Shown in pieces: positions 16,503 to 25,347 of a stretch of DNA of 60,947 nt; within the stretch, counting starts at the first letter, position 1, and the number at the start of each line of letters is the position of its first letter. A program made the translations under genes and the position numbers. Under the pieces are notes generated by a model. The model worked only from the letters and a program-made list of their open reading frames with translations, did no database searches and was not told the origin of the DNA. The DNA comes from Lachnospiraceae bacterium (GTDB taxonomy: Bacteria > Bacillota > Clostridia > Lachnospirales > Lachnospiraceae). The stretch spans positions 1 to 60,947 of the forward strand of contig JAGCVY010000104.1 of NCBI GenBank assembly GCA_017962105.1, in the 5' to 3' direction.

Positions 16503-16667
16503 TTTCCGTGTGTTTCCCCCTTGATTGACTTGCAGAGTGGATTTGCATATAATTATATCGGGAAAAACCCGAAAAGAACAGAACATTTTCCGAAGAAGAA
16601 AAAAGAAAGATGCGAAATATTAATGCGACTTTAATCTTTCTCCCCTTTTTATTTAAGCTTTGGGCGG

Positions 16668-16673
16668 TATGAT
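16668..16673 (+). promoter_or_regulatory. Possible -10 element for the UBA/DUF4342-like gene
   Basis: TATGAT is preceded by GGCGG in the gap between the divergent genes; no good -35 is present at 17 bases. About 100 bases of leader would follow. Confidence 0.35.
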
Positions 16674-16764
16674 GGGCTCATAAACAAGAGAGGCGCACAA
16701 AACGATGCGCAGGACGAAAATACCAAACAAACTTAAATGCCGAAGAGGCGGAAAGGTGATCATT

Positions 16765-17364
16765 ATGGAAAGAAACGAGAAAATTCAGAAGCTTTGCCTG
16801 AAAATGAATGTGACGGAGCAGGAAGCGGATGCGGCTCTCCGCGCCTGCGGTGAGGATATCCTCGATGCGGCGCTGTACCTTGAGGCGCTCGGAAAGGTGA
16901 GAATGCCCAGCGGCGGTTACTACTCCGAGACCCCGAGCATGGAGAGAGGCCCGCAGCAGCAGACCCAGAGACATGCGAGTGAATCCTTCGGAGAGGCGAT
17001 TCGCCGGTTCGGACGCTGGTTCGTAAACGTTGTAAAAAAGGGTATGGACAATTATTTCGAGGTCAGCAAGAACGGTGAGACCAGTTTCCGGGTTCCGTTG
17101 ACGATCTTCGTCATCGCCCTGTTCACCCCGCTGCTTCCGTTCATCATCGCACTGCTTGTGGTCGGACTTTTCTTCGATTACGGATACCATTTTACGGGTC
17201 CGGACCTGAAGGCTGACAACCTCGGCAACGCGGCGGCACAGGGTTGTGCCAACGTAGCGCAGGACATCAAGAAGAGCTTCTCCGGTGCGAACGGTCAGAA
17301 CGGCTGCGCAGGCGAGACCCCTGCTGCAGACAGCTTCGGCGAGGACGGCAAGGACGCGGAGTAA
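16765..17364 (+). CDS. UBA-like / DUF4342-like membrane protein
   Basis: The 199-residue product starts with a UBA-like three-helix region (KIQKLCLKMNVTEQEADAALRACGEDILDAALYLE), like the N-terminus of DUF4342 proteins and elongation factor Ts. A linker leads to a short strand region (NGETSFRVPLTIFVIALF), then one hydrophobic segment (about residues 112-140) as in DUF4342, and a soluble tail rich in Ala, Asn and Gly. DUF4342 has no assigned function. The gene is followed directly by the hairpin pair and a response regulator/histidine kinase on the same strand, so it may be a membrane component of that signalling system. The start follows AAAGGTG. Confidence 0.8.
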   Translation: MERNEKIQKLCLKMNVTEQEADAALRACGEDILDAALYLEALGKVRMPSGGYYSETPSMERGPQQQTQRHASESFGEAIRRFGRWFVNVVKKGMDNYFEVSKNGETSFRVPLTIFVIALFTPLLPFIIALLVVGLFFDYGYHFTGPDLKADNLGNAAAQGCANVAQDIKKSFSGANGQNGCAGETPAADSFGEDGKDAE

Positions 17365-17403
17365 GAGATACGGGAATCCCCTGTGTCTTTCATAAAGAGG
17401 AAA

Positions 17404-17499
17404 ATGAGGCGCTCCACGGTGGTGAGCACAGAGCGCCGGAATGAAGGAAAACAACGGGCGTCCCACGGTGGTGAGCACAGGACGCCCGAAATGTGTTGA
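17404..17499 (+). other. Possible upstream ORF (31 codons) through the hairpin pair
   Basis: An ATG after AGAGGAAA opens a short frame that runs through both hairpins and ends at TGA 17497-17499, on top of the response-regulator ribosome binding site. In two different frames the identical hairpin loop reads as TVVST flanked by Arg, so a peptide-coding reading cannot be excluded, but the covarying stems favour RNA structure. Confidence 0.25.
17408..17487 (+). promoter_or_regulatory. Tandem RNA hairpins with identical 16-base loops
   Basis: Hairpin 1 has stem GGCGCTC (17408-17414)/GAGCGCC (17431-17437); hairpin 2 has stem GGGCGTCC (17456-17463)/GGACGCCC (17480-17487). Both enclose the same loop, CACGGTGGTGAGCACA. 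The stems differ by compensating changes on both sides, which points to a conserved structure displaying a conserved loop sequence. They end 22 bases before the response-regulator start. No terminator-like U-tract follows. Confidence 0.8.
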
Positions 17500-17509
17500 A
17501 GGAGGCAGT

Positions 17510-18193
17510 ATGGCGACGAGAGTACTGATTGTTGAGGATGAGGAGCAGATCGCGAGATTTGTCGAGCTGGAGCTCCGCCATGAGGGGTATGAGACGGACA
17601 AGGCCGTGGACGGCCGGAACGGCCTGACCAAAGCGGAGAGTGGGGAGTACGACATCGTGCTTCTCGATATCATGCTTCCGGAGCTGAACGGACTCGAGGT
17701 GCTTCGGCGTCTGCGCAAGACCTCCGAGGTGCCGGTGATCCTGCTGACGGCCCGGGATTCCGTGATGGACAAGGTGTCCGGACTGGATCTCGGCGCGGAC
17801 GACTATGTGACGAAGCCCTTTGCCATCGAGGAACTGCTGGCGCGCATCCGGGTAGCCCTCAAGAAGAAGGGACCCGCGGTGAAGGACGACGGCGGCAAGC
17901 TGGTGTGGCACGACCTCACGGTTGACCCTGCCGCGTACTCCGCGACCTACGACGGGATTGCCATCGAGCTCTCCAAGAGGGAGTTCGACCTCCTTGCACT
18001 GCTGCTTACCAACCGCAACATAGTTCTGGGGCGGGATACGCTCCTTCAGAAGGTGTGCGGGTACGATTATGTCGGCGAGACCAACGTGATCGACGTGTAC
18101 ATCCGCTATCTGAGGGCAAAGATCGACGAGCGCTTCGGGATCCACATGATCCAGACAGTGCGCGGCGTCGGATATGTGATCAAAGACGAGTGA
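17510..18193 (+). CDS. OmpR/PhoB-type response regulator
   Basis: The 227-residue protein has a receiver domain (IVEDEEQIARFVE with the acidic pair, phosphorylation Asp in IVLLDIMLPELNG, the Thr of LLTARD and the Lys of DYVTKPF) and a winged-helix output domain (ELSKREFDLLALLL, then TVRGVGYVIKDE). The start at 17510 has AAGGAGG four bases upstream; the longer frame would read through the hairpins. The kinase gene follows after 86 bases. The shared transcript is preceded by the two-hairpin leader, a likely point of post-transcriptional control. Confidence 0.95.
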   Translation: MATRVLIVEDEEQIARFVELELRHEGYETDKAVDGRNGLTKAESGEYDIVLLDIMLPELNGLEVLRRLRKTSEVPVILLTARDSVMDKVSGLDLGADDYVTKPFAIEELLARIRVALKKKGPAVKDDGGKLVWHDLTVDPAAYSATYDGIAIELSKREFDLLALLLTNRNIVLGRDTLLQKVCGYDYVGETNVIDVYIRYLRAKIDERFGIHMIQTVRGVGYVIKDE

Positions 18194-18279: not shown

Positions 18280-19725
18280 ATGGGAAAGAAGAACAAAGCG
18301 GTCTCTCCCGCGCCCGCGGTATGGCAGGGGGAGGTGCCGATGAACACCGTCCCCGGCTGGGGCGGAATGCCTGCGAACATGCCGCCCGCGGAATGGAACG
18401 GCGGAAATCCCGCGCCGGTGACGCCGGCCGCAACGAGCAAGGCCGCCAAGGAGCCGAAGAAGAGAGAGGGATCCATCGCCGGAAAACTGCACCGGATGGT
18501 GATCTGCCGGATGTTTTTCGGATACTTCTGGCTGAACCTGATCCTGGTGCTGTCCATCTGCTTCGGATACGTCTACTGCGAGATGAAGAATGCGGATGTC
18601 ACGTTAAACCGCGTTAAGGACATCACCTTTAACGGAACCTTTGAAAATCTGATCATCACCGTCCGGGGAAGCGGCGGGACCCTGCGGATGACCCCGGGGA
18701 TCGGATTCCCTGTCACGGTCCAGATTCTGTGCGTTCTGGCCGGATTTGAGCTTTTATCCCTTCTTCGGGTGATCTGCTTTGACCGGTTCCCGATCCGCCG
18801 TCGTCTGAAGCCTCTTCGGCAAATGGCGGAGACCGCCCAGTACATTACCGACACACAGTGGAATGAGGAGAAGCTGCAGAACCTGACCTACGCCATCAGT
18901 CATGTCGACGCGGAGTCGGCGACGGACCATGTCCGCACCAACGACCGCGAGCTGACCGGCATTGAACGTGCCCTCAACGACCTGATCGACCGCATGCGCG
19001 ACGCGGCGAGACAGCAGACCCGCTTCGTGAGCGATGCGTCCCATGAGCTTCGGACCCCGATCGCGGTGATCAAGGGCTACGCGGACATGCTGGACCGCTG
19101 GGGCAAGGAGGACAAGAGCATCCTCGAGGAGGCCATCACCGCCATCCGCAGCGAGTCCGACCATATGAATACCCTTGTGGAACAGCTTTTGTTCCTCGCC
19201 CGCGGCGACGCCGGAAGACAGCAGCTGACGCTGCAGCAGACGTCCCTCACGGCCATCATGAAGGAGGTTTACGAGGAGTCCGTGATGATCGACAAGAATC
19301 ACACCTACGAATTCCTTCAGGATACCGGTGGGGAGGTGATGTGCTACGGCGATGCGGCGATGCTCAAGCAGTCCATCCGTATTCTGGTAGACAACGCCGC
19401 CAAATACACCACCGTGGGCGACACCATCACGCTCCGCGTGGGGTTGAACCCGGAATTCCGGCCGTTCTACTCGGTCCAGGACAACGGCGTCGGCATGAGC
19501 TCCCACGATGTGGAGCATATTTTCGAGCGCTTCTACCGCTCGGACACCGCCCGCAACAGCAAGACCGGCGGAACCGGCCTCGGCCTGGCCATCGCAAAAT
19601 GGATTATCAACCGCCATCACGGCACCATCATGGTGCAGAGCCGGCCGGAGATCGGAACGAGGTTTACGATCTTCCTGCATACGCAGGAACAGAGCTACAA
19701 CGATGCGGTTGTCATCGGGGCCTGA
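18280..19725 (+). CDS. Sensor histidine kinase
   Basis: The 481-residue kinase has an unusual Pro- and Ala-rich cytoplasmic N-terminal tail of about 60 residues, a first membrane segment near residues 75-95, a short extracellular loop, a second segment near 148-168, a HAMP-like linker and HisKA domain with FVSDASHELRTPIAVIKGY (His at residue 255), and an HATPase domain with the N-box LVDNAAKYT, GVGMSSHDVEHIFERFYR and GTGLGLAIAKWI. The short loop suggests membrane or intramembrane sensing. It forms a pair with the response regulator upstream. A strong terminator follows. Confidence 0.94.
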   Translation: MGKKNKAVSPAPAVWQGEVPMNTVPGWGGMPANMPPAEWNGGNPAPVTPAATSKAAKEPKKREGSIAGKLHRMVICRMFFGYFWLNLILVLSICFGYVYCEMKNADVTLNRVKDITFNGTFENLIITVRGSGGTLRMTPGIGFPVTVQILCVLAGFELLSLLRVICFDRFPIRRRLKPLRQMAETAQYITDTQWNEEKLQNLTYAISHVDAESATDHVRTNDRELTGIERALNDLIDRMRDAARQQTRFVSDASHELRTPIAVIKGYADMLDRWGKEDKSILEEAITAIRSESDHMNTLVEQLLFLARGDAGRQQLTLQQTSLTAIMKEVYEESVMIDKNHTYEFLQDTGGEVMCYGDAAMLKQSIRILVDNAAKYTTVGDTITLRVGLNPEFRPFYSVQDNGVGMSSHDVEHIFERFYRSDTARNSKTGGTGLGLAIAKWIINRHHGTIMVQSRPEIGTRFTIFLHTQEQSYNDAVVIGA

Positions 19726-19904: not shown

Positions 19905-19987
19905 TAGCGTGTTAGTTTCGTGTATCGTAGCGGGGATGGCGCGTCTTCGCGGCGGTACCCATAGTGGCTAAAGAAAGGAAAACGATT

Positions 19988-22534
19988 ATGAAGTACGCAA
20001 AGAAGATTCTGTCTCTGTTGCTCGTTCTTACCATGGTTCTCTCCATGGCTGCGTGCGGCAAGAACAACACAACTCCGTCTTCGACTCCCACCCCGGGCGG
20101 TGACAGCAACGTCACTCCGGAGCCGGCAGCACCGAAGACCTATACTTACAAAGGATACGCTCAGTCGCTCGGTTCCACCTGGAACCCCCACACCTGGGAG
20201 AACAGCGGTGACAGCGCTATCATGGGATATTTGGAGACTCCTCTCGTAAACCTTACGATCAAGGATTCGGAGAACGCTCAGTATCAGTGGATTTATGAGA
20301 TGGCAACATCCGTTACCGATACCACCAAGGATCATCGCGATGATCTGAAGAAATACGGCTGCGAGATCGTGGAGGGTAAGACAGTTGACACGGTTGAGGA
20401 AGGCTACGTATATGATATCGCGCTTCGCAAGAATGCGAAGTGGGAGGATGGAACTCCGATCAATGCGGATACCTACATCTACTCCATGCAGCAGCTTTTG
20501 AATCCGGATATGAAGAACTACCGCGCCAACACCTACTGGTCCGGTGACTCTGCAATTGCCGGTGCGAAATTGTATTACTACGGCGGTTCGACCTCGGCCC
20601 TTGAAAACCTGCTGGATCCCGATACCGGAGCCTGCGTGTTCGACGGTCTGGATAAGCTTACGAAGGGCACGGACGGCGTTTACACCAATCCCGCGGACGG
20701 CAACAAGGTGTACATTGCCCTTGATCAGCCTCTGACCTGGCTTCAGGATGCTACTCTTAAGGAGATCATGGAGACTCCGGCTTACGATGAGTATCTCGGA
20801 CATGACACCTGGGCTCAGCTCCTTGCGATGATGGATGAGGAAACCGGTCTTGTTCCGCTTACCGATGAGGCTTATCAGCTGTTTGTTCCGATCATCACCT
20901 TCAACCCTCTTTGGGGTGAGACCGAGGCTGATGCTCCGGTATACTGGATGTATGACAAGACCTTCGAGAAGCTTGACTTCTCCGCTGTAGGTCTTTACAA
21001 GGTTGATGACTATACGATCCGTTACGTCAACGAGAAGTTCATCGAGCGCAATTACTTCCTGACTTCCCTTACCAGCAACTGGATCGTCAACGAGAAGCTT
21101 TACGAGGCCAACAAGGAGACCAAGGACGGCCTCGTTACGACGAAGTACGCTACCTCGAAAGAGACCACCTGCTCCTACGGTCCTTACAAGATCGCGTCCC
21201 TTCAGAATGGCAAGCAGATCGTGTTCGTTCAGAATGAGAACTGGTTCGGTTACACCAAGAATGCTGACGGCAGCCTTACCTCTATGACCTCTGCAGAGGA
21301 CTTCCAGGTTGACGGCAAGGATGTACAGCAGTATAAGGCAACCTCCGTTGTCATCGACGTTATGGATGACAGCACGGCGAAGCAGGCGTTCCTCAAGGGT
21401 GACCTCAGCGATTGGCAGCCCACCGCAGAGGAGCTTGTAAACTACTCCACTTCGGATCAGCTTTACAAGATGGATGAGACCTACACCATGAGTTTCTTCT
21501 TCAACACCGACCTCGAGTCGCTGAAGCAGATGGATACCTCCAAGGGTAACCAGAACTCCGTGGTTATGTCCAATATCAAATTCCGTAAGGCTATGTCTTA
21601 CGCGATCAACCGTCAGGAGTTCGTTACCGCAACGGCAGGTTACAAGCCCGCTTACTACATCCTGAACGGTCTGTACTACTACGACGTATACAACAATCCG
21701 GATTCGATCTACCGTGACACCGACGAGGCTATGCAGGCTATCTGCAACCTTTACGGCGTTGAGTACGGCGAGGGCAAAGCATACGCTACCCTGAAGGACG
21801 CTTACAAGTCCATCAATGGTTACAACCTTACCCTTGCAAAGCAGATCTTCACGGAAGCCTGCGACGAGCTCGTTGCAGCCGGCCTTTACAATAAGGGCGA
21901 TGAGATCAAGATCCGTATCGGCTGGGCCAAGGGTGCTCTTCAGACTTCCGATACCGCTCAGGTTAACCTGATCACCAAGGAAGTGAACGCAGCCCTTGAG
22001 GGAACCGGCTTCGGCAAGATCACCTTCGAGGCAGTCGGCAACCTTGCAGATCGTTACAAGAGCGTTACCAACGGTGAGTTCGCGATCGGCTACGGCGCAT
22101 GGGGCGGTGCAGCGTTCTATCCGTTCACCAACTTCCGCGTATACTGCGATCCGGCCTACGTTTCGATTCATGAGGCAGCTTGCTGGGATCCTACGACGGA
22201 GACTCTGACCATCAACGTCAACGGCGTAGACGATACCATGACATGGCAGAAGTGGTCCAACTCGATGGAGAGCGGTAAGTATGCGTCGGCTGATTTCAAG
22301 ACGAAGCTTACGATCCTTGCGGCGATGGAGGAAAACTACCTCGCTAAATACTATCGTATTCCGCTTGCGGTTTCCACCATCTGCGAGATGCTTTCCTTCC
22401 AGGTGAAGTACTATACGGATGAGTACAACATCATGTACGATTTCGGCGGTCTTCGTCTCATGGAGTTCAACTACGATGATGAAGCGTGGAAGAAGGCTGT
22501 AGCAGATCAGGGCGGCGTTCTCAAGTACGAGTAA
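19988..22534 (+). CDS. Oligopeptide ABC transporter substrate-binding lipoprotein (OppA-like), enlarged
   Basis: The 848-residue protein has a signal peptide with lipobox (MVLSMAACGKN), a short Thr/Pro linker and the SBP_bac_5 fold: ALRKNAKWEDGTPINADTYIYSMQQLLNP near the start, KFRKAMSYAINRQEF in the second lobe and a further lobe with INGYNLTLAKQIF. It is about 300 residues longer than classic OppA, like its paralogue at 10786. The start at 19988 is preferred because the frame upstream lacks a signal peptide and AAAGGA precedes this ATG. It is first in the order binding protein-B-C-D-F and is separated from oppB by a strong hairpin, the usual way of making more binding protein than permease. 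Confidence 0.93.
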   Translation: MKYAKKILSLLLVLTMVLSMAACGKNNTTPSSTPTPGGDSNVTPEPAAPKTYTYKGYAQSLGSTWNPHTWENSGDSAIMGYLETPLVNLTIKDSENAQYQWIYEMATSVTDTTKDHRDDLKKYGCEIVEGKTVDTVEEGYVYDIALRKNAKWEDGTPINADTYIYSMQQLLNPDMKNYRANTYWSGDSAIAGAKLYYYGGSTSALENLLDPDTGACVFDGLDKLTKGTDGVYTNPADGNKVYIALDQPLTWLQDATLKEIMETPAYDEYLGHDTWAQLLAMMDEETGLVPLTDEAYQLFVPIITFNPLWGETEADAPVYWMYDKTFEKLDFSAVGLYKVDDYTIRYVNEKFIERNYFLTSLTSNWIVNEKLYEANKETKDGLVTTKYATSKETTCSYGPYKIASLQNGKQIVFVQNENWFGYTKNADGSLTSMTSAEDFQVDGKDVQQYKATSVVIDVMDDSTAKQAFLKGDLSDWQPTAEELVNYSTSDQLYKMDETYTMSFFFNTDLESLKQMDTSKGNQNSVVMSNIKFRKAMSYAINRQEFVTATAGYKPAYYILNGLYYYDVYNNPDSIYRDTDEAMQAICNLYGVEYGEGKAYATLKDAYKSINGYNLTLAKQIFTEACDELVAAGLYNKGDEIKIRIGWAKGALQTSDTAQVNLITKEVNAALEGTGFGKITFEAVGNLADRYKSVTNGEFAIGYGAWGGAAFYPFTNFRVYCDPAYVSIHEAACWDPTTETLTINVNGVDDTMTWQKWSNSMESGKYASADFKTKLTILAAMEENYLAKYYRIPLAVSTICEMLSFQVKYYTDEYNIMYDFGGLRLMEFNYDDEAWKKAVADQGGVLKYE

Positions 22535-22583
22535 TCCGCACCGAAAGCCCGGGATTCGGGCAGCTATAATGCGATGACAGCTG

Positions 22584-22614
22584 CAGGGCGGGAGTGAGTT
22601 CCACTCCCGCCCTG
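22584..22614 (+). terminator. Strong hairpin between the binding-protein gene and oppB
   Basis: A perfect 13-bp stem, CAGGGCGGGAGTG (22584-22596) with CACTCCCGCCCTG (22602-22614), and an AGTTC loop. The following T-run is weak, so it may be a partial terminator or a 3'-end stabiliser. Confidence 0.75.
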
Positions 22615-22620
22615 TTGTGC

Positions 22621-22760
22621 GGTTATTTTTCGCGGGGACATCGCTTATTTTTCGGCGTTTCCTCGAAAAATAACTGCATCTCAGCACTTTTTGCAAAGCA
22701 GGCGTACATTTGCGCTTTTTTGCAAAACATAATGCATTTGCATGTTTTTTATGATATACT
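22621..22760 (+). promoter_or_regulatory. Repeat-rich leader and possible promoter of oppB
   Basis: TTATTTTTCG occurs at 22623-22632 and 22645-22654 and in inverted form at 22664-22673; the last two form a 10-bp stem. TTTGCAAA-type words recur near 22690 and 22719. A TATACT at 22755-22760 is a possible -10 with no good -35. These may be regulator sites for the permease genes. Confidence 0.45.
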
Positions 22761-22799
22761 GTTTTTGATTTCCGATTACAAGGCAAAGGAGTTGCCGGT

Positions 22800-23759
22800 A
22801 TGCTGAAATATGTTATCAAACGTGTTGTTTTGATGTTCGCCACGCTGTTTATTATCGTGACGATCTGTTTCTTTTTGATCAAACTTCTTCCGCAGGATAT
22901 CCCGCAGGAGGCCGCTCAGCAGGAAGCCATGATGGAGAGGTTGAAGGCGCAGGGGTACGACAAGCCGATATACGTTCAGTACTATCGATACCTCAGGAAT
23001 ATTTTCACGCATTGGGACTTCGGTACCTCGTGGAAAATCCAGAAGATGCAGCCTGTGACGGAACTGTTTATCGAGCGTCTGCCGCCGACGGTTCTGATCA
23101 ATCTCTATTCCCTGCTGGTATCGCTCCCGATCGGAATCCTTCTCGGTATCTATGCCGCTATTAAGAAGAACAAGTGGCAGGATCAGGTGATCAGTACTTC
23201 GGTCATGATCTTTGTGTCGGTACCGTCCTATGTGTACGCATTTCTTGTACAGTATTTTCTGTATTTCAAGTGGGGGCTTCTGCCGCCCACGGTATATTCG
23301 CTTGCCGACGCCGGAGGATCCTGGTTCACCTTCCAAATGTTTAAGAGTATGCTTCCGCCCGTGATTGCGCTTGCGTTCGGTTCGGTGGCATCCCTGTGCC
23401 GCTTCACCCGTGCGGAGCTCACGGAAACCCTGACGTCGGACTACATGCTTTTGGCAAGGACCAAAGGTCTGACCCGCGCGCAGGCGACTTCCCGCCACGC
23501 CATGAAGAACGCCATGGTGCCGATCCTTCCGATGATTCTCGGAGGGTTTATCGACATCCTTGCCGGTTCCTTCATCATCGAGCAGATCTTCTCGGTTCCC
23601 GGCGTAGGCCAGCTGTATCTGACATCCATCAATCAGCTGGATTACGATGTGTTCATGATGGATACCGTATTCTACACCTTCGTAGGTCTTCTGGCCGGAA
23701 TCGTGACCGACCTGAGTTACGGCTTCATCGATCCGAGAATTCGAATGGGGGAGAAATGA
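22800..23759 (+). CDS. oppB: Oligopeptide ABC transporter permease OppB
   Basis: The 319-residue inner-membrane protein starts with the OppB/DppB signature (LKYVIKRVVLMFATLFIIVTICFFLIKLLP) and has six predicted membrane segments. The cytoplasmic EAA loop, with DYMLLARTKGLTRAQATSRHAMKNAMVPI, is intact, and the terminal GLLAGIVTDLSYGFIDPRIRMG is typical. It forms the translocation channel with OppC. Length is normal. AAAGGAG (22786-22792) precedes the ATG, and oppC starts one base after the stop. Confidence 0.95.
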   Translation: MLKYVIKRVVLMFATLFIIVTICFFLIKLLPQDIPQEAAQQEAMMERLKAQGYDKPIYVQYYRYLRNIFTHWDFGTSWKIQKMQPVTELFIERLPPTVLINLYSLLVSLPIGILLGIYAAIKKNKWQDQVISTSVMIFVSVPSYVYAFLVQYFLYFKWGLLPPTVYSLADAGGSWFTFQMFKSMLPPVIALAFGSVASLCRFTRAELTETLTSDYMLLARTKGLTRAQATSRHAMKNAMVPILPMILGGFIDILAGSFIIEQIFSVPGVGQLYLTSINQLDYDVFMMDTVFYTFVGLLAGIVTDLSYGFIDPRIRMGEK

Positions 23760-23760
23760 T

Positions 23761-25347
23761 ATGAGTAAAACAGCTGTAAACATCAAATCCATCCCCGCAG
23801 AGAAGTTTGCATTCGTAAATCGCGGAGAGAAACTGACAGACACGAAATTTGTCGATAAGCCGGTGGGCTACCTGAAGGATGCGTGGATCCGTTTCTGCAA
23901 GAACAAGGGCTCCATCGTGGCTGCCGTGATCATTTTGATCATCCTGTTGTTTGCGTTCCTTACCCCGGCGTTCTTCACGAAGTATGACCAGACCTTTATG
24001 GATGTCTACTACGCAAAGAAGGCACCGCGTAACATCTGGCTCCGCGACCATCTCGGGATCTGCAGCGGAACCGTAACCCGCGACTTCAACGAGCGCGGTA
24101 TGCTTGTCCTCATCGGTATCGGGATCGGTGCCGAGGATACACAGGGCACCGGCAAGGTTACCCTTGAGGAGGGTATGGCGAGCTACTACCAGCCGATGAA
24201 AGAGATCGGTGATCCTCAGGAAATCACCGGAATGATCGGCTCCAAGGACAAGACGATCTACACCTGTGAACTGGACACGTATCTGGAGTACGGGTTCCAG
24301 TACCAGAGCATCGAACAGTCGGAATACAAGAAGATCAAGGAATGGGAAGCCCAGACCGGACTGCAGGTCCTGTATCCTCTCGTGGAGGAGAACGAGTGGA
24401 ACCTCGAGCCCACCAACGCGAACTATTGGTATAAGACCAAGAAGGGCACTCCCGTAACCGTAAATGCAAGAGGCAAGGCCAAGGAGATCGCCTACGAGCC
24501 GGGCATGGTCCTCGAGGACAATTACGTGCGCGACGCCGACGGCAACCCGGTGTATTACATGTTCACCGGCGGCGGTGATGTGGATACCGCCCAGTACAAG
24601 GTCCGTGTGCTGTATTACAACTACTACCGGTATGTGAACGGCTTTGAGCCGGAATATCTCTTCGGAACCGACAGCCAGGGCTATGACCTGATGCTTCGTC
24701 TGGCGTCCGGTATCAAGCTGAGTTTTCTTGTGGCTCTTGTTGTGTCGATCATCAACTTCACGATCGGTGCGATCTACGGCGCTATCGAGGGTTATTACGG
24801 CGGAACGACAGACCTTGTGATGGAGAGAATCTCGGATATCCTCGCCAACACGCCGTTCATCGTTGTTGCCACACTGTTCCAGCTGCACTACGCTTCGAAA
24901 CTGGGACCGATCCCCTGTCTTTTGTTCGCCTATGTGACCACCGGCTGGCTCGGTATGGCATACCGCGTGAGAACCCAGTTCTACCGCTTTAAGAACCAGG
25001 AGTACGTTATGGCTGCCAGAACCCTCGGCGCCAGCGACGCCCGCATCATTTGGAAGCACATTTTCCCGAACAGTCTCGGAACGATCATCACCAGCTGCGT
25101 GCTGGTTATCCCGGGCGTTATTTTCTCCGAGAGTATGTTGAGCTTCTTAGGTATCGTGAAACTCGGAACCGAAAAGACAACATCCCTTGGAACCCTCCTT
25201 GCCGATGCAAGCTCCATCTGGATGAATTATCCTCATCTGATGCTCTTCCCGGCACTTGTGATTTCCCTTTTGGAGATCTGCTTCAACCTGTTCGGCAACG
25301 GTCTCCGCGATGCATTCAATCCGTCCCTGAGAGGCGTGGAGGAATAA
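23761..25347 (+). CDS. oppC: Oligopeptide ABC transporter permease OppC with large loop insertion
   Basis: The core is OppC/DppC: an N-terminal tail, membrane segment 1 at about residues 55-75, then FGTDSQGYDLM (from residue 301) and five further segments with the EAA loop EYVMAARTLGASDARIIWKHIFPN and the end LFGNGLRDAFNPSLRG. The family is normally about 300 residues; this protein has 528 because some 180 extra residues lie between segment 1 and the FGTD motif, on the outside of the membrane. The insert is charged and Tyr-rich with no family I recognise. A position facing the binding protein suggests docking to the enlarged lipoproteins. The next gene starts four bases after the stop. Confidence 0.92.
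   Translation: MSKTAVNIKSIPAEKFAFVNRGEKLTDTKFVDKPVGYLKDAWIRFCKNKGSIVAAVIILIILLFAFLTPAFFTKYDQTFMDVYYAKKAPRNIWLRDHLGICSGTVTRDFNERGMLVLIGIGIGAEDTQGTGKVTLEEGMASYYQPMKEIGDPQEITGMIGSKDKTIYTCELDTYLEYGFQYQSIEQSEYKKIKEWEAQTGLQVLYPLVEENEWNLEPTNANYWYKTKKGTPVTVNARGKAKEIAYEPGMVLEDNYVRDADGNPVYYMFTGGGDVDTAQYKVRVLYYNYYRYVNGFEPEYLFGTDSQGYDLMLRLASGIKLSFLVALVVSIINFTIGAIYGAIEGYYGGTTDLVMERISDILANTPFIVVATLFQLHYASKLGPIPCLLFAYVTTGWLGMAYRVRTQFYRFKNQEYVMAARTLGASDARIIWKHIFPNSLGTIITSCVLVIPGVIFSESMLSFLGIVKLGTEKTTSLGTLLADASSIWMNYPHLMLFPALVISLLEICFNLFGNGLRDAFNPSLRGVEE

Follow-up and report, generated by a model that had tools for sequence, protein, structure and literature searches.

The MS2 operator and lambda boxB are hairpins whose capping loop is read by a protein, and REP/BIME repeats are palindromic, intergenic, dispersed and multicopy elements which may occur in tandem. 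The loops of the guanidine-II (mini-ykkC) riboswitch read ACGR, and its two hairpins dimerize through them. This riboswitch is reported to comprise two small stem-loops of similar sequence (PMC5486947). ANTAR sites combine 3-bp stems with hexanucleotide loops having conserved positions 1 and 4; they are located near a terminator, and proteins with an ANTAR domain recognize them (PMC3369931). The locus described here is located in a window of 60,947 nucleotides (the whole stretch of DNA analyzed) from a Lachnospiraceae bacterium, and resembles each of these systems in some respects. It shares two tandem hairpins, conserved loop bases and a link with a two-component regulator with the EutV-type ANTAR dual-hairpin antiterminator (PMC3369931), and the pair of small, similar stem-loops with guanidine-II. 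As in the protein-binding operators, a stem carries a conserved capping loop; as in the REP/BIME repeats, the units are palindromic, intergenic and in some cases tandem.

The differences are equally clear. The loops comprise 16 nt and the stems 6-11 contiguous pairs, as opposed to the hexanucleotide loops on short stems given for ANTAR sites in PMC3369931; no intrinsic terminator was detected on the + strand at positions 16600-18000 of the window, and the regulator encoded there carries a Trans_reg_C and not an ANTAR output domain. An ANTAR site was ruled out on these three grounds. The locus is distinguished from guanidine-II by the lack of any match with the Rfam model, by the 16-nt loop, and by the fact that although two hairpins are present in the window, seven of the ten genomes harboring the motif have a single unit. 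Unlike the MS2 operator and lambda boxB, the motif occurs in tandem copies, its sequence is unrelated to theirs and its partner is putative. Lastly, while REPs are dispersed and multicopy, only one locus per genome was found here, which rules out the REP-like repeat proposed as an alternative in an earlier note on this DNA.

Hairpin 1 (17408..17437, + strand) consists of a 7-bp stem, GGCGCTC (17408-17414) paired with GAGCGCC (17431-17437), closed by the 16-nt loop CACGGTGGTGAGCACA (17415-17430), and hairpin 2 (17455..17488, + strand) consists of a 9-bp stem, CGGGCGTCC (17455-17463) paired with GGACGCCCG (17480-17488), closed by an identical 16-nt loop (17464-17479). Both features are based on the sequence, on folding and on the scores of a covariance model (R1), which was built with both of them and gives 53.1 bits to hairpin 1 and 60.0 bits to hairpin 2. 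Direct reading of the sequence therefore bears out the two tandem hairpins with identical loops and different, fully paired stems described in the earlier note, and its 7-bp stem is right; the stem of hairpin 2 is one pair longer than was stated there, and the loop starts are 49 bases apart. Three matches to the loop with up to three mismatches, two of them exact, occur in the window versus 0.36 expected, and this number was reached in none of 100 shuffles. In the genome from which the window originates (2.59 Mb, 105 contigs), these two are the only exact copies of the loop, four other matches carrying two mismatches. The 161-nt region folds with z = -2.38 (3 of 200 shuffles were equally good), and the hairpins folded singly have energies of -14.0 kcal/mol (hairpin 1, z = -2.20) and -19.7 kcal/mol (hairpin 2, z = -2.70). 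Folding is thus by itself modest evidence, and the case rests on the comparison between species.

In a set consisting of this genome and 60 relatives, the loop was found with at most one mismatch in 11 genomes, all belonging to the same genus. The occurrences of the loop or its complement number 15, namely 14 hairpins and one site (L015, in genome G018) located elsewhere in the genome, without any pairing stem at its flanks. In the other 10 genomes, all of them motif-bearing, the loop lies directly before the response-regulator orthologue. Three copies are present in G010, two each in G000 and G014, and one each in G005, G009, G019, G013, G002, G003, and G007; the spacings between the loop starts of tandem copies are 49, 50, 49, and 51 bases. 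Each unit is composed of a variable stem kept for pairing and a loop of 16 nt, CACGGUGGUGAGCACA, which hardly varies. Thirteen of the 14 copies have the exact loop, and 15 of its 16 columns are invariant, the exception being the G009 copy, in which a C3A change accompanies the loss of the closing C-G pair. In the regulator gene of the same ten genomes, only 5 of 46 fourfold sites do not vary (when the comparison is limited to the eight genomes with the full gene, 11 of 75, the sequence being incomplete in G003 because of a contig end and in G007 because of a run of N). The mean pairwise identity at these sites is 0.53, and over 423 nt no invariant run exceeds 8 nt.

The stem arms show mean pairwise identities of 0.58 and 0.55, and the outer flanks 0.41 and 0.29. 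The arms are thus little more conserved in sequence than the fourfold sites while their pairing is retained, which means that they drift, and the loop is nearly frozen. The stems comprise 6-11 contiguous pairs over the copies, with the closing pair lost in G009 and one internal mismatch in G019. Examples of compensation can be read directly: G005 and copy b of G014 each depart from copy b of G000 at just one of the nine pairs, where G-C has been exchanged for A-T, and the first copies of G000, G014, and G010 share a common 5' flank, GAGGAAAATG, and show several compensated stem-pair differences. In an alignment (A1) of 13 of the 14 copies, from which G007 was left out, its stem being equal to that of G003, 96.6% of 117 cells are paired (0 of 500 shuffles as high), double changes occur at 8 of 9 pairs (2 of 500), double-change cells number 30 versus 9.0 in the shuffles, and the covariation score is 0.766 versus 0.253 (0 of 500). 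When the partner arm is slid by 1-3 columns, pairing falls to 34-39%. One of the five measures, the number of further pair types in A1, is not above chance (15 versus 13.3; 106 of 500 shuffles as high).

Phylogeny was taken into account with a null in which the substitutions obtained by parsimony stayed on their branches and were assigned anew to randomly chosen stem columns. The input was the regulator-proximal copy of each of the 10 genomes, the four distal copies being left out, on a regulator tree which is partly unresolved. In this test, 88 of 90 cells are paired, versus a null mean of 62.0 and maximum of 76 (0 of 5000 replicates as high), the covariation was likewise reached in 0 of 5000 replicates, and the double-change pairs in 9 of 5000; one parsimony reconstruction yielded 12 compensatory branch events, the substitutions totaling 32. 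The compensatory changes therefore exceed both chance (the shuffles on A1) and phylogeny (the tree-aware null). The covarying stems noted between the two hairpins of the window hold across species, and so does the structured RNA presenting a conserved loop that was proposed on that basis: 14 copies in 10 species, 13 exact loops, compensated stems and a rejected tree-aware null. The comparative case for a cis-acting structured RNA element with a conserved loop before the regulator appears to be well supported.

The genus set of 22 genomes includes, apart from the 10 carriers, eight genomes in which the regulator has an orthologue (70-80% identity) and the motif is missing, and four (G006, G011, G020, and G021) in which neither a clear orthologue (best matches 47% or less) nor a strong hairpin is present. 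In the regulator tree, rooted at the midpoint, a branch with a support of 95/91 separates the ten carriers from the rest; of the eight non-carriers, six lie closest to them, and G017 and G015 are placed further out. Since eight relatives outside this clade have the orthologue and not the motif, the latter is a lineage-specific gain or loss, confined to one clade. Homologous loci devoid of loop and pairing, which the earlier note had named as evidence against its proposal, thus exist in these eight relatives, whereas within the clade both are kept. The eight named carrier records are all assemblies called Lachnospiraceae or Lachnoclostridium, and three titles mention the omasum, reticulum or rumen. 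Other hairpins are present at the same place in some of these genomes. In G018, G008, and G016 (L177, L178, and L180), the gap before the regulator contains a terminator-like hairpin, GGCCGGG...CCCGGCC TCTTTC, in which the stem is kept and the loop varies, the reverse of the motif. In G019 (L172) and G002 (L174), the motif is followed by a second hairpin without the conserved loop, such as GGGCGTC CGAAGGAGAC GACGCCC in G002; these may possibly be decayed or unrelated copies.

Searching this genome and its relatives with a covariance model, as the earlier note had suggested, gave the same 14 copies, at one locus per genome and before the orthologous regulator. Model R1 was made from 13 distinct hairpins, and hence from copies which it then scores highly (51.6-60 bits in the 22 genus genomes); the next best score is 22.3 bits. 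The 150 first-look candidates scored in each of the 22 genomes, several of which are incomplete (59-100%), gave no second locus in the genus. In the samples used for the wider searches, which were run with stricter filters than the genus search, R1 gave strong matches only in this genome and G002 among 397 family genomes (two others scored 25.0 and 24.1 bits), in this genome only among 392 order genomes, and in this genome and two others (30.5 and 26.1 bits, both sites being crossed by long open frames) among 398 phylum genomes. No credible copy was found outside the genus in these samples. The exact 18-mer occurs in 20 stretches of a genome contig collection, eight from this genus with 6-11 contiguous stem pairs and 12 from other organisms with 1-5 pairs, and the 17-mer in four stretches of viral contigs with 0-5 stem pairs. 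No such loop was seen by eye in the 300 bases upstream of 11 regulator homologues from other genera.

The 25.0-bit family-level match (L101:1500-1540) is an isolated hairpin from another genus of the family, with a motif-like loop, CACGGTGCAGAGGGCACAG, downstream of a gene which, judging by eye on the basis of the translation, is pyrE-like. It was rejected as a relative: the inner GUGC/GCAC stretches pair and z = -5.23, yet the site is exact only in G388 among 41 genomes of its genus (G388 plus a sample), and similar sites in five other genomes of that genus carry 2 mismatches and no comparable stem by eye. The weaker family-level match, at 24.1 bits, is L102. A hairpin of G012, located at the same place but without the motif and faintly like L101, was judged to be due to chance, and is absent from the matches of R1 with E values up to 10 in a run without filters. 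At the gathering thresholds, Rfam models matched only tRNA in the window, and at E values up to 10 the region gave one match (E = 7.9), with an unrelated plant-virus element, which agrees with the earlier note, whose author knew of no Rfam family with this loop. The openly accessible full texts searched gave neither a description of the loop as an RNA element nor a mention of DUF4342; one loop string matched in PMC11049214, which judging by its title deals with neuroglobin and cytochrome c.

The hairpins lie on the + strand between two co-directional genes 145 nt apart. Upstream is the gene of a DUF4342 protein (16705..17364; PF14242, 26.3 bits versus a cut-off of 25, with hydrophobic stretches judged by eye), the product of which gave no match in an NCBIfam search. 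Downstream are an OmpR-type response regulator of 227 aa with Response_reg and Trans_reg_C domains according to Pfam (17510..18193), and a sensor histidine kinase, also assigned by Pfam (18280..19725). The mechanical list of open reading frames extends the regulator upstream through hairpin 2 (17441-17509), and its orthologues align from the start codon at 17510. The regulator's Shine-Dalgarno sequence AGGAGG (17500..17505), read directly, occurs 11 nt past hairpin 2, just where the earlier note had placed the hairpins in relation to the ribosome-binding site. That note had also located them before a two-component operon: the regulator and kinase do follow, and since DUF4342 precedes in the same direction, the element is intercistronic, or lies in a leader starting inside DUF4342, and is not plainly at the head of the operon. 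The DUF4342-regulator gap ranges from 76 to 243 nt across the ten carrier genomes; in G005 and G013 the stem starts, by direct reading, about 24 and 16 nt past the DUF4342 stop, so that there is no room for a promoter between the two. A simple scan of positions 16600-18000 of the window gave no promoter-like site.

Inside the loop, folding predicts pairs between GUG and CAC, which would enclose a GUGAG pentaloop and leave an internal loop, CACG/A; the pentaloop might be regarded as GNRA-like, which is our own reading. These inner bases never vary among the copies, so that covariation cannot test their pairing. Stem wobbles in the 14 copies amount to five G-U versus two A-C when the + strand is read, a bias which lends weak support to a + strand RNA. 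No expression platform or switch structure was visible, either in the + strand terminator scan or in the accessibility of the Shine-Dalgarno sequence, the hiding of which is inconsistent (mean unpaired 0.19-0.83 in the ten carriers versus 0.15-0.88 in the eight non-carriers). A coding repeat or upstream peptide was discarded: tandem spacings vary from 49 to 51 bases, and the copies have different open frames across the loop, none being common to all.

The fact that a nearly invariant loop is carried by an interchangeable stem in a varying number of units suggests a recognition element for a trans-acting factor, and the position before the Shine-Dalgarno sequence suggests that the translation or stability of the regulator-kinase part may be controlled. 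On balance, and with moderate confidence, we therefore lean toward a lineage-specific cis-acting RNA whose loop would bind a putative factor, probably a protein, tuning the expression of the regulator and kinase. The two hairpins would then be tandem copies of one element in a DUF4342-response regulator-histidine kinase mRNA, the one, two or three units of each clade genome all lying between DUF4342 and the ribosome-binding site of the regulator. The loop would be the recognition surface, most likely for an RNA-binding protein acting on this operon only; an autogenous or dedicated factor seems likelier than a global one, because the search of the genus gave no second locus. Such a factor, bound shortly before the Shine-Dalgarno sequence, might set the translation and/or stability of the regulator-kinase part relative to DUF4342, and extra copies might raise avidity. 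It counts against this reading that eight relatives keep these genes without the motif, and that the operon can therefore do without it.

Other explanations have to be set against this protein-bound element. Pairing of a trans-encoded small RNA with the loop is unlikely. Exposed conserved loops are usual landing sites of such RNAs, and a seed of some 7-10 nt would suffice, but at up to one mismatch the 61 genomes contain only the 15 occurrences given above, and no near-full-length complement was found in the genus. The 13-mer complement GTGCTCACCACCG is exact elsewhere only twice in the 22 genus genomes (L133 and L139), both times inside long open frames, and within the operon, complements of 7 or 8 nt were never found at the same position in more than two of the ten genomes. 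The loop might also serve as a ribosome standby site or an extended Shine-Dalgarno-like sequence, since its segment GGUGGUGA resembles GGAGGUGA and could hold the 30S subunit near the start site, before which the element does lie. Its pairing with the 16S 3' end (not taken from this genome) reaches -11.4 kcal/mol, a value matched by 3.5% of 2000 shuffled loops and by 6.0% of the 16-mers of the regulator/kinase region and thus only marginal versus chance; such a site would not need 15 fixed bases out of 16, and the start of the proximal loop is anywhere from 46 to 99 nt from the ATG. We consider this somewhat less probable than a small RNA, and give the same low weight to an aptamer for a small molecule or ion, comparable to the small ligand-binding hairpins with similar loops of guanidine-II. 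An aptamer would fit a self-contained unit with tandem copies, a nearly invariant loop and a place before a regulatory gene; against it stand the single copies, the lack of any terminator or sequestering switch, and the Rfam result.

The opposite strand has to be considered as well, because the minus strand folds slightly better (-14.7 and -20.4 kcal/mol for hairpins 1 and 2) and a terminator scan flags both hairpins on it, with T-containing tails (5 such patterns in the region versus 1.8 expected); both facts speak weakly against a + strand RNA. That the motif is a minus-strand terminator, or a stabilizer of the 3' end of the DUF4342 mRNA, with an incidental loop, is nevertheless very improbable: both neighboring genes are on the + strand, T-rich tails are not conserved (by direct reading, G002 is an example without one), and terminators generally keep the stem and vary the loop, as in the G018, G008, and G016 hairpins, which is the opposite of the motif. 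The least probable of these alternatives is a site acting as DNA, either a cruciform or the binding site of a regulator, such as the response regulator encoded downstream. Autoregulation is common among such regulators, and the nearly regular tandem spacing would suit it, but compensatory stem changes are not expected of a double-stranded DNA site, and six relatives whose regulators are 75-80% identical have no motif.

The hairpins are probably a new RNA control element, in the light of these comparisons. An almost frozen 16-nt loop, drifting yet paired stems and a unit count changing between close species constitute a natural experiment in RNA recognition. Comparing copies in this way can reveal regulatory RNAs which are lineage-specific, very small and narrowly distributed, and the element predicts a binding factor for a two-component operon, which could be obtained with one bait RNA.

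Two of the proteins, DUF4342 and the kinase, both of which have hydrophobic stretches, differ between carriers and non-carriers. The Gly/Asn/Ala/Asp fraction in the last 60 residues of DUF4342 is 0.52-0.72 in all ten carriers versus 0.27-0.38 in all eight non-carriers, and a longer N-terminal stretch of the kinase, rich in Pro/Gly/Trp/Met, is present in 9/9 readable carriers (the shortest in G002 and G019) and absent in 7/7 readable non-carriers, the kinase of G003 being off its contig and that of G015 giving only a fragment. Since each could go back to a single event on a single branch, these tails are a correlate of the motif clade, and may provide a lead as opposed to evidence of interaction. 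The low-complexity tails presumably face the cytosol. A more speculative version of the protein-bound element, which we judge to be quite improbable, would be an RNA-protein system private to the operon, where either the DUF4342 protein or the kinase, tethered at the membrane, binds the loops of its own mRNA and the sensor system meters its synthesis by the number of hairpins, from one to three depending on the species. After the kinase, the window carries oligopeptide-type ABC transporter genes (19964-25347), encoding an SBP_bac_5 protein and two Opp-like permeases, and related SBP and permease genes also follow the kinase in G014, G019 and, in a more divergent form, G010.
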